Source of the DNA: Methanoculleus horonobensis
GTDB taxonomy: Archaea; Halobacteriota; Methanomicrobia; Methanomicrobiales; Methanoculleaceae
Direction: 5' to 3'
DNA: 64,000 nucleotides
Assembly: GCF_001602375.1 (NCBI RefSeq)
Contig: NZ_BCNY01000014.1
Span: forward strand, 186,001-250,000
Shown here one piece after another: positions 2,712-61,978 of this stretch. Made by a program: the position numbers and the translations under genes. The notes beneath the pieces are model-generated. The model saw only the letters and a program-made list of their open reading frames with translations, did no database searches and was not told where the DNA came from. Numbering within the stretch: position 1 is the first letter of the stretch; each line of letters starts with the position of its first letter.

Positions 2712-2747
2712 GCACCTAACGGTGCTCATGCTCCGGACGTCCCGTCC
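2712..2747 (-). repeat. Two hairpin modules of the mosaic repeat family, overlapping the end of glmM
   Basis: On the minus strand a palindrome GGACG-GGA-CGTCC (2735-2747) is followed by the spacer GGAGCATGAG and a second palindrome GCACC-GTTA-GGTGC (2712-2725). The same words occur in the large arrays: the first palindrome and spacer recur at about 15370-15395. The first hairpin lies inside the last codons of glmM, and the stop TGA is read from the spacer. Confidence 0.8.
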
Positions 2748-4096
2748 GTCGCAACCATCATGATCTCCCGGTACATGGCGTCCGCGACGGCCGGGTCCTT
2801 TGCCTCGATCATGATCCTGATCATCGGTTCCGTGCCCGATGCACGCACCAGCGCCCAGGCGTTCTCCCTGACGATCTTGATGCCGTCGATCTTCTCGATG
2901 GTCTCTCCTCCGAACGCCTCTTCGACGGCGCGGACCAGCGCGGCCGGGTCGGCGGTATGGTATTTCTCTTTGACCAGGTGGTATGCGGGGAGTTCATCGA
3001 CGATCTCCGAGAGTTTCCTGCCCTTGTGGCTCGCGAGCACCGCCACCATCATGGCGGCGGTCATGCCCCCGTCCCGGCAGAACTGGTGGTCGGGGTATAT
3101 CAGCCCGCCGTTTCCTTCGCCCCCGAACGAGACCTTCTTGCCCTCGCCGATCAGCTCGATCATCCTCCTCGCGACGTAGATGCTCCCGACGGGGGTGTAG
3201 TCGACGGTGCAACCGTGTTTCTCTGCGATATCTCGTATCAGCCGGGAGGTGGCGACCGGGGTGACGACGAGTCCGCCGCCGTTTCTACCGCAGACATAGT
3301 CCTCGACCAGGCCGAACTCGTAGTTCTCTTCTATATAGCGTCCTTTGGTGTCGACGAAGACTGCCCGGTCGGCGTCGCCGTCGTGCGCCACCCCGAAGTC
3401 GGCGCCCGTGGCGAGCACCATCTCCGAGAGGGGCTGTAATCCTTCGGGTGTCGGTTCGGGCATCCGCCCAGGGAAGGTGCCGTCGAGCCTGCCGTTGATG
3501 GTATGGACCCGGCACCCCATCCTGGAGAGGATGATCGGGGTCGTGAGCGCCGCGGGCCCGGAACCGGGGTCGACGACGACGGTCATCCCTTTGCCGATGC
3601 CCTCCGGGAAGTACTTCACCACGGCCTCGATGTAATCCTCGAACCGGTCGGGTGCGGCGCTCTCGCTGCCGACGCCGTCCCAGTCGACCACATCGAACTC
3701 CTCTGCAAAGAACCGGCCTTCGAGCCGGATGATCTCCTCGTCGGACATCTCGGTGCCGTCGGCCTCGATGATCTTCACGCCGTTGTACTCGGGCGGGTTG
3801 TGGGATGCGGTGATCATCGCGCCGCCGGCAAACCGGTTGGTCTTGATGATATACTGCAGGGCCGGGGTGGGGAGGACGCCCATGTCCACCACGTCGCACC
3901 CGGTCATCAGGAGCCCGGCCTTGAGGGCATGGGTCAGGGCTTCGCCGGACGTCCGCGTGTCTCTGCCGACCGCGATGGTGCCTCTCCTCATCGATCCGAG
4001 CGCGGCGCCGATCTTGAGGACGAGGGCCGGCGTCATCGTCTCGCCGATCACGCCCCGCACGCCGTTCGTTCCAAACATCTGTTTTCCGTTTCGCAT
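2726..4096 (-). CDS. glmM: Phosphoglucosamine mutase (alpha-D-phosphohexomutase family)
   Basis: GlmM interconverts glucosamine-6-phosphate and glucosamine-1-phosphate on the way to UDP-GlcNAc, used for glycoconjugates and surface polymers. The 456-residue product has all family landmarks in order: the phosphoserine loop TASHNPPEYNG (about residue 97), the metal-binding loop HDGDADRAV (about 240), the sugar-binding GGEGNGG (about 325) and the C-terminal phosphate-binding RASGTEPMIRIM (about 425). An ATG at 4096 follows the preceding stop by 4 nt; a second in-frame ATG at 4078 (MFGTNGVRG) would give the more usual N-terminus. It is the last gene of an operon with DUF5806 and mobB-moaE. The last codons (ATDGTSGA-stop) come from a mosaic-repeat module. 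Some archaeal homologues act as phosphomannomutase, so substrate is less certain than family. Confidence 0.9.
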   Translation of the reverse strand: MRNGKQMFGTNGVRGVIGETMTPALVLKIGAALGSMRRGTIAVGRDTRTSGEALTHALKAGLLMTGCDVVDMGVLPTPALQYIIKTNRFAGGAMITASHNPPEYNGVKIIEADGTEMSDEEIIRLEGRFFAEEFDVVDWDGVGSESAAPDRFEDYIEAVVKYFPEGIGKGMTVVVDPGSGPAALTTPIILSRMGCRVHTINGRLDGTFPGRMPEPTPEGLQPLSEMVLATGADFGVAHDGDADRAVFVDTKGRYIEENYEFGLVEDYVCGRNGGGLVVTPVATSRLIRDIAEKHGCTVDYTPVGSIYVARRMIELIGEGKKVSFGGEGNGGLIYPDHQFCRDGGMTAAMMVAVLASHKGRKLSEIVDELPAYHLVKEKYHTADPAALVRAVEEAFGGETIEKIDGIKIVRENAWALVRASGTEPMIRIMIEAKDPAVADAMYREIMMVATDGTSGA

Positions 4097-15205: not shown

Positions 15206-15610
15206 TTTCCACCGGCTTCGCACCTTCGGTGCTCTAGCTCCGGTTCTCCGAACCATCGCCTATCGCCATGGACTGCCCCCGCCCCCTGGGGCGGGGTGCG
15301 ACGGGCCATGGGGCCGGAGCATGAGCACCGCAGGTGCGGAGGAGGAGGCCGGAGACCGGGCGGGGTGTGACGGACGGGACGTCCGGAGCTTGAGAAGACC
15401 GAAGGTCTTCGAGTGGGGGTTACAGGAATTCCCTCGTATGTGGAGACAGGGGAGGGGGGATGCTCCCCCCTCCCCGTCAGCCCCACCCCCGATGGCGATA
15501 TGCGACTGGCCGAAGGTGCGACATTCCTCTGGAACGGAGTTCGAGCACCGGAGGTGCGGGGGCAGGAGCACGAGCACCGAAGGTGCGTAGTCCCCACGGT
15601 CCACTGCAAT
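15206..15610. repeat. Mosaic hairpin-repeat array, including a 61-bp ends-only element
   Basis: The region is a chain of short palindromes with 3-4 nt loops. Examples are GCACC-GCA-GGTGC, GAAGACC-GAA-GGTCTTC, GGACG-GGA-CGTCC, GAAC-GGA-GTTC and GCACC-GAA-GGTGC, joined by GAGCATGAG, GAGCTTGAG or GAGCACGAG. At 15440-15500 the two element ends lie almost next to each other: GTGGAGACAGGGGAGGGGGG on the left and ATGGCGATA (reverse of TATCGCCAT) on the right. This looks like a minimal element without interior modules. Another TATCGCCAT is at 15261-15269. The array lies between the 5' side of the ferritin-like gene and the 3' end of thrS. Open frames across it (15136-15609 and others) are by-products of the repeats. 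Confidence 0.85.
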
Positions 15611-27256: not shown

Positions 27257-27311
27257 GCGGCGTGAAGACGGCGATGGCGATAAGCGACGTTTCGGCAGAA
27301 ACGGATCTCGA

Positions 27312-27325
27312 GCACCGTCAGGTGC
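27312..27325 (+). repeat. Single mosaic-repeat hairpin module
   Basis: CGAGCACC-GTCA-GGTGCGC contains the palindrome GCACC/GGTGC with a GTCA loop and the flanking GAGC and GCG words. The same module recurs at about 61740-61755. It is 65 bp beyond the stop of the beta-propeller gene and may act in 3'-end formation or be an element relic. Confidence 0.6.
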
Positions 27326-29216: not shown

Positions 29217-29230
29217 GCATCGTCAGGTGC
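29217..29230 (+). repeat. Degenerate mosaic-repeat hairpin module
   Basis: GAGCATC-GTCA-GGTGCAC has the family layout with one G-T pair in the stem (GCATC/GGTGC). It lies at the broken 5' edge of the membrane-protein remnant. Confidence 0.45.
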
Positions 29231-49031: not shown

Positions 49032-49165
49032 GGCCGAATGCCCTCAGTCCGGCAGATTCACCGCAACCTTGCTAATATCATAGGGTTTTTCCGGGGACGT
49101 TATCGGCATGCGGAATCGCCGGTGGTACTTGCTACCTGCTATACCCCATTTACGGATTTCGAGGG

Positions 49166-49284
49166 GGTATCGCCATGGGGGGTGGGGACAATGGGGAGTG
49201 CGACCGAAGGGAGCATGAGAAGAACGAAGTTCTTCGAGGGGGGTCTCCCCCCTCCCCTGAAACCCCTCCCCCAGACGCGATAGC
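49166..49284. repeat. Short mosaic hairpin-repeat element
   Basis: The element begins with GGTATCGCCAT (49166-49176) and the G-rich words shared with other copies. It contains AGTGCGA-CC-GAA-GG-GAGCATGAG and the perfect palindrome GAAGAAC-GAA-GTTCTTC (49219-49235), followed by GAGGGGGG-TCT-CCCCCCTC (49236-49254) and CTCCCCTG. The right end departs from the other elements after that and finishes with GCGATAGCC, which partly mirrors the left end. It lies between two convergent genes. The 419-bp gap around it (49021-49439) holds no gene. Confidence 0.8.
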
Positions 49285-49439
49285 CACCACGGTCCAGTTG
49301 ATCGGGTTTTTATCGAGCTCTTACTGCTCTGAGGTGCTATCGAAGAGCCCGTTCTGCAATCGGTTCCTGTTTTCTCTTCTCGCCTGTGATAAGATGACGG
49401 TAACTATACCTGAGTGCCGGCAGGAGGAGTAACTCCTGC

Positions 49440-55282: not shown

Positions 55283-55870
55283 GGCCTTCGGCCTCCTCCT
55301 CCGCACCTTCGGTGCTCAAACTCCTGCTGTTCCAGCAGTCGTTCCCCGCCCCTTGGGGCGGGGGCAGTCATGGCGATACCCCCACGGTACACTGCCTGGG
55401 GATAGGCTCTAGATAGGGGGATGTATGGCTCCCCTCCCGGATACGGCTTTCGTGGGGGTATCGCCATTGGGGGAGTGCGACTGGCCGAAGGGCAGGAGCA
55501 TGAGAAGAACGAAGTTCTTTGAGGGGCTGACGGGGAGTGCGACTGGCCGGAGGGTGCGACTGCCGGAACGGCAGGAGCATGAGAAAACGCGAAGCGTTTT
55601 CGGGGCAGGAGCATGAGCACCCGAAGGGTGCGGAGTGCGAGCGTAGCGAGCTTGAGCACCGGAGGTGCGAGTGCGATGGTTCGTAGAACCGGAGCTCGAC
55701 CACCGTCAGGTGGGAAGTGCGAGCGTAGCGAGCTTGAGCACCGGAGGTGCGAAGGGGAGCATCCCCCCTCCCCTGTCTCCACCTGCCGCGGATAACTGTA
55801 GCCCCCACCCCACCCGCGCTTCACGCTCCTCCCCCTTCCTGCGGGGCGGGGGCAGTGTGTGGGGATAGCC
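55283..55870. repeat. Large mosaic hairpin-repeat array with both element ends
   Basis: The array holds a long chain of palindromes. Examples are GGCC-GAA-GGCC, CTGCTG-GAA-CAGCAG (minus), AAGAAC-GAA-GTTCTT, CTGCCG-GAA-CGGCAG, AAAACGC-GAA-GCGTTTT, CACCC-GAA-GGGTG, GC-GTA-GC, CACC-GGA-GGTG, GGTTC-GTA-GAACC and CCACC-GTCA-GGTGG. Spacers alternate between GTGCGA-type and GAGC(A/T)TGAG-type words. A full-length element runs from TATCGCCAT (55459-55467) to CCCCCCTCCCCTGTCTCCAC (55763-55782). A second, shorter part sits left of it in the opposite orientation, with ATGGCGATA at 55370-55378. Open frames here are artefacts. Confidence 0.88.
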
Positions 55871-61344: not shown

Positions 61345-61820
61345 ACGAACTCATTAGTACGTGGAGACAGGGGAGGGGGGCAAGCCCCCTCGAAGAACTT
61401 CGTTCTTCTCGTGTTCGCTTCGCTCGCACCTCGAAACTCTTCGAGTTTCTCATGCTCACTACGTTCGCACCTCGCACCTATCGGTGCTCAAGCTCGCTTC
61501 GCTCGCACCTCGAAACTCTTCGAGTTTCTCATGCTCACTACGTTCGCACCTCGCACCTATCGGTGCTCAAGCTCGCTTCGCTCGCACTTCCCACCTGACG
61601 GTAGTCGAGCTCCGTTCCTTCGCACCTTCGGTGCTCACGCTCCGGTTCTCGCACCTTCGGTGCTCAAACTCCTGCCGGGACGGCAGTCGCACTCACGAAC
61701 CGTCGCGCTTCGAACCGTCGCACCCCCCGTCAGCCCTTCGCACCTGACGGTGCTCCAGCTCCGTTCCGTTGGAACGTCGCACCCTCCGGCCAGTCGCACT
61801 CCCCTATGGCGATATCCCGT
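61345..61820. repeat. Mosaic hairpin-repeat element, full length with both ends
   Basis: On the minus strand the element runs from TATCGCCAT (61806-61814) to CTGTCTCCAC, whose complement GTGGAGACAGGGGAGGGGGG is at 61361-61380. Between the ends are about fifteen palindromes with GNA or GNNA loops, such as CTGCCG-TCC-CGGCAG-type stems, GCACC-GAA-GGTGC, GC-GAA-GC, AC-GTA-GT, AAACTC-GAA-GAGTTT and CACC-GATA-GGTG. The spacers are GTGCGA and GAGC(A/T)TGAG words. A 79-bp unit is duplicated in tandem. The 662-bp gap (61330-61991) between convergent genes has no gene. Confidence 0.9.
61415..61587. repeat. 79-bp tandem repeat inside the element
   Basis: The unit starting TCGCTTCGCTCGCACC begins at 61415 and again at 61494 and, in part, at 61573, so the period is 79 bp. 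Copies 1 and 2 look identical. Read on the minus strand, one unit is two spacer-hairpin pairs: GTGCGA with GC-GAA-GC and AC-GTA-GT mini-hairpins, and GAGC(A/T)TGAG with CACC-GATA-GGTG and AAACTC-GAA-GAGTTT. Confidence 0.9.
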
Positions 61821-61978
61821 GGAAATCCGTGCACGGGTGTGGTGTCCCACCCATTGCTCTTCGGGACACCCGAGGCTCGGAAGTTGCTGGCCTCCCCCCA
61901 CCACACGCATGCAGCGATCAAAACCCCCAGGGCGGCCCGCTAAACCCGGCCCTCCCTCGATATCCGGGGGCGCTTTCC

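Follow-up and report, generated by a model that had tools for sequence, protein, structure and literature searches.

Between two genes at positions 61345..61820 of the window, the whole 64-kb stretch of Methanoculleus horonobensis DNA that was analysed, lies an array of short palindromes with differing stems and closely similar loops. The question raised by this locus is whether it is a fold that has been retained here and, if so, on which strand, in which form and by what route such units have spread.

Hairpin arrays of the window

The array comprises at least six two-hairpin units and includes a 79-nt tandem duplication. An earlier note had described G-N-A and G-N-N-A loops at this place; the loops are present, but on the minus strand, the plus strand reading TTC, TAC and TATC. 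The minus-strand hairpins are GAAGAAC-GAA-GTTCTTC (61392..61408) and GAAACTC-GAA-GAGTTTC (61433..61449, second copy at 61512-61528), both with GA flanks, the mini-hairpin AC-GTA-GT (61458..61464, second copy at 61537-61543) with the linkers GTGC-GA and GA-GCAT around it, GCACC-GATA-GGTGC (61474..61487, second copy at 61553-61566), in which the loop is GNNA and not GNRA, and GCACC-GTCA-GGTGC (61740..61753).

Seven such places had been named in all, and on re-reading the motif was present at each of them. The composite locus at 55283..55870 uses both strands, with minus-strand hairpins at 55302-55338 followed by carrier pieces and then by a plus-strand array (55470..55755); the query for genome searches was taken from 55480-55780. 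The hairpins of this plus-strand array are CTGCCG-GAA-CGGCAG, GAAAACGC-GAA-GCGTTTTC, CGGTTC-GTA-GAACCG, CCACC-GTCA-GGTGG and GC-GTA-GC. A second composite locus, at 15206..15610, has CGGACG-GGA-CGTCCG and GAAGACC-GAA-GGTCTTC on the plus strand and GCACC-GAA-GGTGC on the minus strand. The minimal carrier at 49166..49284 holds one plus-strand unit, GTGC-GA-CC-GAA-GG-GA-GCAT-GA-GAAGAAC-GAA-GTTCTTC-GA, and a plus-strand unit of CGTTTC-GGCA-GAAACG followed by GCACC-GTCA-GGTGC occupies 27288..27325. At 29217..29230 (plus strand) the motif stood, but the perfect stem attributed to it did not, the hairpin GCATC-GTCA-GGTGC being decayed by a mismatch. A phosphoglucomutase-like gene (2726-4096) has a single minus-strand unit (2712..2748) at its 3' end, and its stop codon is the TGA within the linker GCATGA (GAGCATGAG); the gene end is supplied by the unit.

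The carrier at 55370..55467 has a 17-nt inverted repeat, ATGGCGATACCCCCACG / CGTGGGGGTATCGCCAT, matching at 100%. A larger, MITE-like carrier that holds arrays was seen at 49148-49305, 55370-55467 and 61797-61837 and at loci L111, L113 and L114. Its ends, GTGCACGGATTTCCATTGGATATCGCCA / GGTGCAGTGGACCGTGGTGGATATCGCCA, are imperfect and its inner parts G-rich, and at L114 it occurs without GNA hairpins.

Loop rule and selection of the fold

The window was scanned for hairpins with a stem of at least 4, a loop of 3-4 and GA immediately on each side. Loop ends were G..A in 21 of 35 such hairpins against about 2 expected; the 15 other classes together made up 14, with a maximum of 3 in any one class. 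All but one of the G..A hairpins (20 of 21) fall within the places of the earlier note, the observation of which is confirmed and is stronger than first seen; the GA flanks, complementary linkers, insertion of units in loops and the carrier element are features beyond it. The full unit reads GTGC-GA-[stem-GNA-stem]-GA-GCAY-GA-[stem-GNA-stem]-GA, with loops of GNA or GNNA. Linkers of 4 nt alternate between the hairpins, and those around one hairpin form complementary pairs (GTGC/GCAY, GAAC/GTTY, GCGC/GCGT). Since GA stands on both sides of each hairpin, the stem may be continued by a tandem G.A step.

In the genus sample, 77 distinct hairpins combine GA flanks with a G..A loop; they are built on 46 distinct stems and divide into 43 triloops and 34 tetraloops. 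That the loops are nearly always closed by a C-G pair was too strong a statement, as this pair closes 57 of the 77, and one of a unit's two hairpins often has G-C or T-A. The G-N-A or G-N-N-A rule holds within the family with the exceptions TCC, ATA, ACA, AAC and TTTA. A TCC loop can mark an inverted GGA hairpin: hairpins of the type CTGCCG-TCC-CGGCAG equal a GGA hairpin read on the opposite strand, and look as though they had been flipped in place.

Anchoring on the true spacer gave distinct hairpins with a GN(N)A loop in 36 of 83 cases downstream and 22 of 56 upstream; four decoy spacers gave 1 of 45 and 1 of 40, respectively. A repeat-poor congener showed no bias, with G..A ends in 2 of 44 GA-flanked hairpins. 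The earlier note had held that loop triplets random over all palindromes would make the rule accidental. When all perfect palindromes with stems of at least 6 were counted in a 400-kb sample, GNA was only weakly enriched (33 of 206 against 21 of 166 in a Markov control), which indicates that the loop rule is a property of this repeat family and not of palindromes generally. The other ground named for regarding it as an accident, stems varying without compensation, failed, in that stem changes are compensated across units.

Compensation was assessed on units gathered by their anchors alone (CGA, 15 nt, GAG, 3 nt, GAG), leaving stem and loop unconditioned. This yielded 71 distinct units, 60 of which form 4 or more of the 6 stem pairs, with a GNA loop in 53 of those 60. 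Over the 71 units 83.5% of cells were paired, compared with 65.7% after shuffling, and double changes numbered 132 against 58 in shuffles (0 of 500 shuffles); in slid registers paired cells were all at or below about 44%. The 4-bp linker helix taken alone gave a covariation score of 0.402 against 0.271 (0 of 500 shuffles), and in a separate test it exceeded all 2000 permutations. The 6-bp stems contain 29 G.T/T.G cells against about 11 A.C/C.A cells, and this excess of wobbles identifies the GNA strand as the folding strand independently of the loop. The proposal that one strand is selected to fold is borne out by covariation of stem and linker and by the asymmetric wobble, and selection of the fold is well supported. 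The unit was recovered by folding programs both as DNA and as RNA, its GA hinges forming a 2x2 internal loop, and in both cases the GNA strand was more stable than its complement, the advantage being modest with DNA parameter sets.

The GNA strand had further been said to fold as DNA rather than to make protein. Folding by one strand stood, and DNA rather than RNA is favoured as the folding form by the GNNA tetraloops, in which the third base is a pyrimidine in 24 of 34 distinct cases of the genus sample. GNRA loops of RNA require a purine in third place and C(GNNA)G loops of DNA do not; the pyrimidine-rich third base fits the latter and not the former. Mini-hairpins of the d(GCGAAGC) type, C(GNA)G, follow the same loop and hinge rules in DNA, with tandem sheared G.A. 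That the repeats do not serve to make protein is reasonable, given tandem periods (46, 79, 87 and 97 nt) that are mostly not multiples of three.

Distribution and probable mobility

The 301-nt query (55480-55780) gave 76 matches in the 2.45-Mb genome, on most contigs; the genome sequence itself was read in sampled stretches. Of 41 genomes searched 21 contained matches, and each of these belongs to the genus Methanoculleus; 16 genomes of other families of the order contained none. As judged by these matches, the family appears confined to the genus Methanoculleus at the DNA level.

The core GCGARCGNAGYGAGC has a wider range. Of 295 genomes from the phylum, 116 contain it, with up to 96 per genome, and among the matches listed it was found in named Halobacteria; in the scan of named genomes many bacterial matches must be chance. 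As a loop-swap control over the phylum, the ANT core was found in 34 genomes against the 116 with the GNA core. Base composition makes C(ANT)G cores 5-12 times rarer, so that this count is lenient and a permutation test of flank pairing was used. At 40 GNA-core sites of other euryarchaeal families, outer flank pairing was 3.02 bp against 0.92 permuted (0 of 1000), and at 20 ANT-core control sites 0.70 against 0.63 (396 of 1000). Core sites of named Halobacteria (2.08 against 0.84, 1 of 1000) and bacterial core sites (0.73 against 0.31, 0 of 1000) pointed the same way. Pairing of the flanks beyond that of permuted sites shows that the core fold is shared across archaeal families with outer stems that are unrelated in sequence and complementary. 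A haloarchaeal-type 400-kb sample showed no G..A excess (6 of 114 GA-flanked hairpins with inner stems of at least 4), which indicates that the feature shared there is the 2-bp core fold only. Bare 2-bp GNA hairpins of a haloarchaeal-type genome had GA/GA flanks in 2.4% of cases, compared with about 1% for most loops and 2.2% for A.G loops; this enrichment was absent from the sample of the present genome (G000).

Several haloarchaeal-type core sites adjoin tRNA genes (L145, L147, L152, L158, L163, L164, L171), some of them lying between copies of the T-arm-like sequence GGTTCGAATCC. An Omnitrophota repeat, CGTCATTGCGAGGA-GCGAACGAAGTGAGC-GACGAAGCAATC (L229), obeys the order stem/GA/stem/GA/GNA and starts with the CGTC tag of the CGTC-REPs discussed below, which is a lead. 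The bacterial repeats beginning CGTCATTGCGAGGAGCG and GTCATTCTGAGCG (L201, L229, L198, L200) seem to keep the order stem/GA/stem/GNA.

Occupied and empty sites were compared within the genus. In several species, and in paralogues, a nucleotidyltransferase gene has the uninterrupted sequence GGGGCGA/AGAGCG, an empty site (the slash marks the junction). The congener G016 has one two-hairpin unit there, and G000 has the same unit plus 95 nt of array placed exactly at the GAA loop, CGCTCT/GAA-AGAGCG; the gene with insert has stops in the one frame translated. At a second locus a unit of G004 (L354) is absent in G006 and M. marisnigri (L353/L352). The site of the 61345 array is empty in congener loci L115, L120, L130, L136 and L137 and holds other material in L111-L114 and L131. 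Nesting was also seen where the outer arms CGGTTC...GAACCG and CGTTCC...GGAACG are split by a whole unit, the splitting units beginning with G and ending with GA or GAA; the list of nested forms includes some matches within coding sequence that are due to chance and have no linkers. Tandem expansion of units has also occurred, at periods of 46, 79 and 87 nt among others. Satellites with periods of 46, 87 and 97 nt from unit expansion were seen at L003, L006 and L366, and are probably those listed for M. marisnigri (PMC6749651). The target rule is approximate, with GA on both sides and no clear long duplication; the hairpin unit itself lacks the terminal inverted repeats and target-site duplication of a classical MITE, and the carrier ends are imperfectly inverted. 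On these sequence comparisons the units are likely mobile, the differences between sites representing gain or loss.

Explanations and known systems

The reading that we consider probable, though with limited assurance, is that of short mobile elements, non-autonomous and marked out by the way one strand folds. The GNA strand would fold as single-stranded DNA in replication or repair, sheared G.A pairs in loop and hinges giving the folded strand unusual stability. A candidate activity of the host or of an element would recognise the fold and not the stem sequence, and may copy or move units to GA sites, with the loops of other units among the targets. Recognition of this kind would allow the stems to drift freely while GA and G..A stay fixed, and would turn arrays into nested mosaics. 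Benefit to the host, if any, would be secondary.

A less probable explanation places the effect in RNA: the arrays would be transcribed at gene 3' ends as structured RNA acting on mRNA stability or termination, as for many REPs. Intergenic arrays lie mostly 3' of genes, with 20 between convergent, 22 between codirectional and 5 between divergent genes, and where the pair is codirectional the GNA strand matches the sense strand 15 times and the antisense strand 5 times. The sense bias and the rarity of divergent sites fit RNA-level effects or selection against promoter insertion, and REPs are likewise found at 3' ends, seldom at divergent sites and with a sense bias; together with common G.U-type wobbles and recovery of the unit by RNA folding, this placement keeps an RNA reading alive. 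Its standing is reduced by the 15 of 57 arrays that contain units in both orientations, by tetraloops that are not GNRA and by insertion in loops and tandem expansion, which are DNA events. Only two tRNAs scored above the gathering score in an Rfam scan of the window, and the repeats match no family. Mutation alone is an unlikely source. Self-templated repair or template switching would perfect quasi-palindromes, G..A being the tightest DNA turn, and ectopic recombination would spread the arrays, with neither selection of the fold nor a recognising enzyme. Such an origin gives rise to tandem expansion and to stems that are perfect yet varied in sequence, and accounts for DNA-type loops without function or transposase, but leaves unexplained the fixed GA hinges, the alternating linkers, the covariation of the 4-bp linker helix, the lasting G.T wobbles and the insertion of a whole two-hairpin unit in a gene and a loop.

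That the units are REP-type elements moved by an IS200/IS605-like enzyme, whether a Y1 HUH transposase (RAYT) or a different one, is very improbable. The preference of the hairpins for one strand, the intergenic 3' location and the mosaic arrays do recall REP/BIME (PMC3733652). The hairpin feet, however, lack GTAG, and the Y1 transposase PF01797 (IS200/RAYT) had no matches in G000, G003, G004, G005, G006, G012 and G020; it is missing from most congeners rich in repeats and occurs in several that are poor in them. Y1 transposases were seen mainly in congeners with few or no repeats. The IS110 transposase family (PF01548) was not detected in G000. Accidental origin from a small number of recent duplications could draw on the tandem duplications that make up some arrays and on the weak loop enrichment over all palindromes; it was ruled out by the 46 stems among 77 distinct hairpins together with the compensatory changes, and with recurrence in other archaeal families also against it, its probability is close to nil.

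A wider proposal on such elements can be made tentatively, and may well prove too broad: the units would belong to a class of fold-coded mobile DNA that reaches across the archaea and probably into bacteria, recognised in single-stranded DNA by GNA loops and tandem sheared G.A largely irrespective of stem sequence, and inserting in GA sites and in each other's loops via a putative single-strand DNA recombination activity. If true, it would offer a sequence-independent rule for finding and explaining palindromic repeats without a transposase or common sequence, perhaps bacterial ones too, as well as natural genomic evidence for in-cell selection on C(GNA)G and tandem G.A folds, so far a matter of oligonucleotide studies. 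A cultured species with a closed genome would then allow the spread of enzyme-less REP-like elements to be tested.

Among known systems the CGTC-tagged REPs of five bacterial phyla, including Rickettsia RPE-4/RPE-6 (Di Nocera et al. 2013, PMC3733652), are closest in behaviour. They are dispersed short palindromes, variable in stem and small in loop, that lie between genes (mostly convergent or codirectional) and sometimes within them, and have no dedicated transposase. Their definition requires an unpaired CGTC tag, stems of 8-9 bp with AT at the start, loops of 4-5 nt and a CCA tail (PMC3733652). The Methanoculleus units start with linker-GA-stem, without a CGTC, TGTC or CCTC tag, AT stem start or CCA tail, have 43 triloops and 34 tetraloops among 77 in place of 4-5 nt loops, and differ further in GA on both sides, GNA or GNNA loops, two-hairpin units, complementary linkers and nesting in loops. 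GTAG REPs and BIMEs, which are served by RAYT (TnpA-REP), are alike in their one-strand hairpins, mosaic arrays, 3' intergenic location and capacity to supply stop codons. Unpaired GTAG or GTGG was not found at the foot of the Methanoculleus hairpins, where GTGCGA, GAACGA, GCATGA, GCTTGA and similar sequences stand, and this genome has no RAYT. Rickettsia palindromic elements insert in genes in frame and encode a conserved peptide; here the insertion is in the nucleotidyltransferase gene.

Most alike in the way they work are the yeast mitochondrial GC clusters, whose mobile hairpin units insert at AG and form larger mosaics by merging and shuffling, with no enzyme known (PMC4478555); their stems are constrained, and sequence homology is not claimed. 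GA flanks and merging were seen in the Methanoculleus units and may correspond to the dinucleotide target and the merging of GC clusters. In GC42 of yeast the loops are variable, whereas here the G..A loop ends are fixed and the stems vary with compensation. The satellite passages for M. marisnigri (PMC6749651) treat families of 45 and 51 nt as tandem repeats and are silent on the hairpin rule; to judge from unit length, these satellites are probably tandem expansions of the present units. In a literature search that covered mostly open-access papers, no description of the GNA and tandem-GA rule for a genomic family was found, and searching by repeat sequence found nothing. C(GNA)G mini-hairpins have been used as aptamer caps (PMC4686876) and, with tandem G.A, have been studied as oligonucleotides; the Methanoculleus family follows the same loop and hinge rules. 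The repeats are REP-like or GC-cluster-like, with the GNA and tandem-GA rule as an extra.
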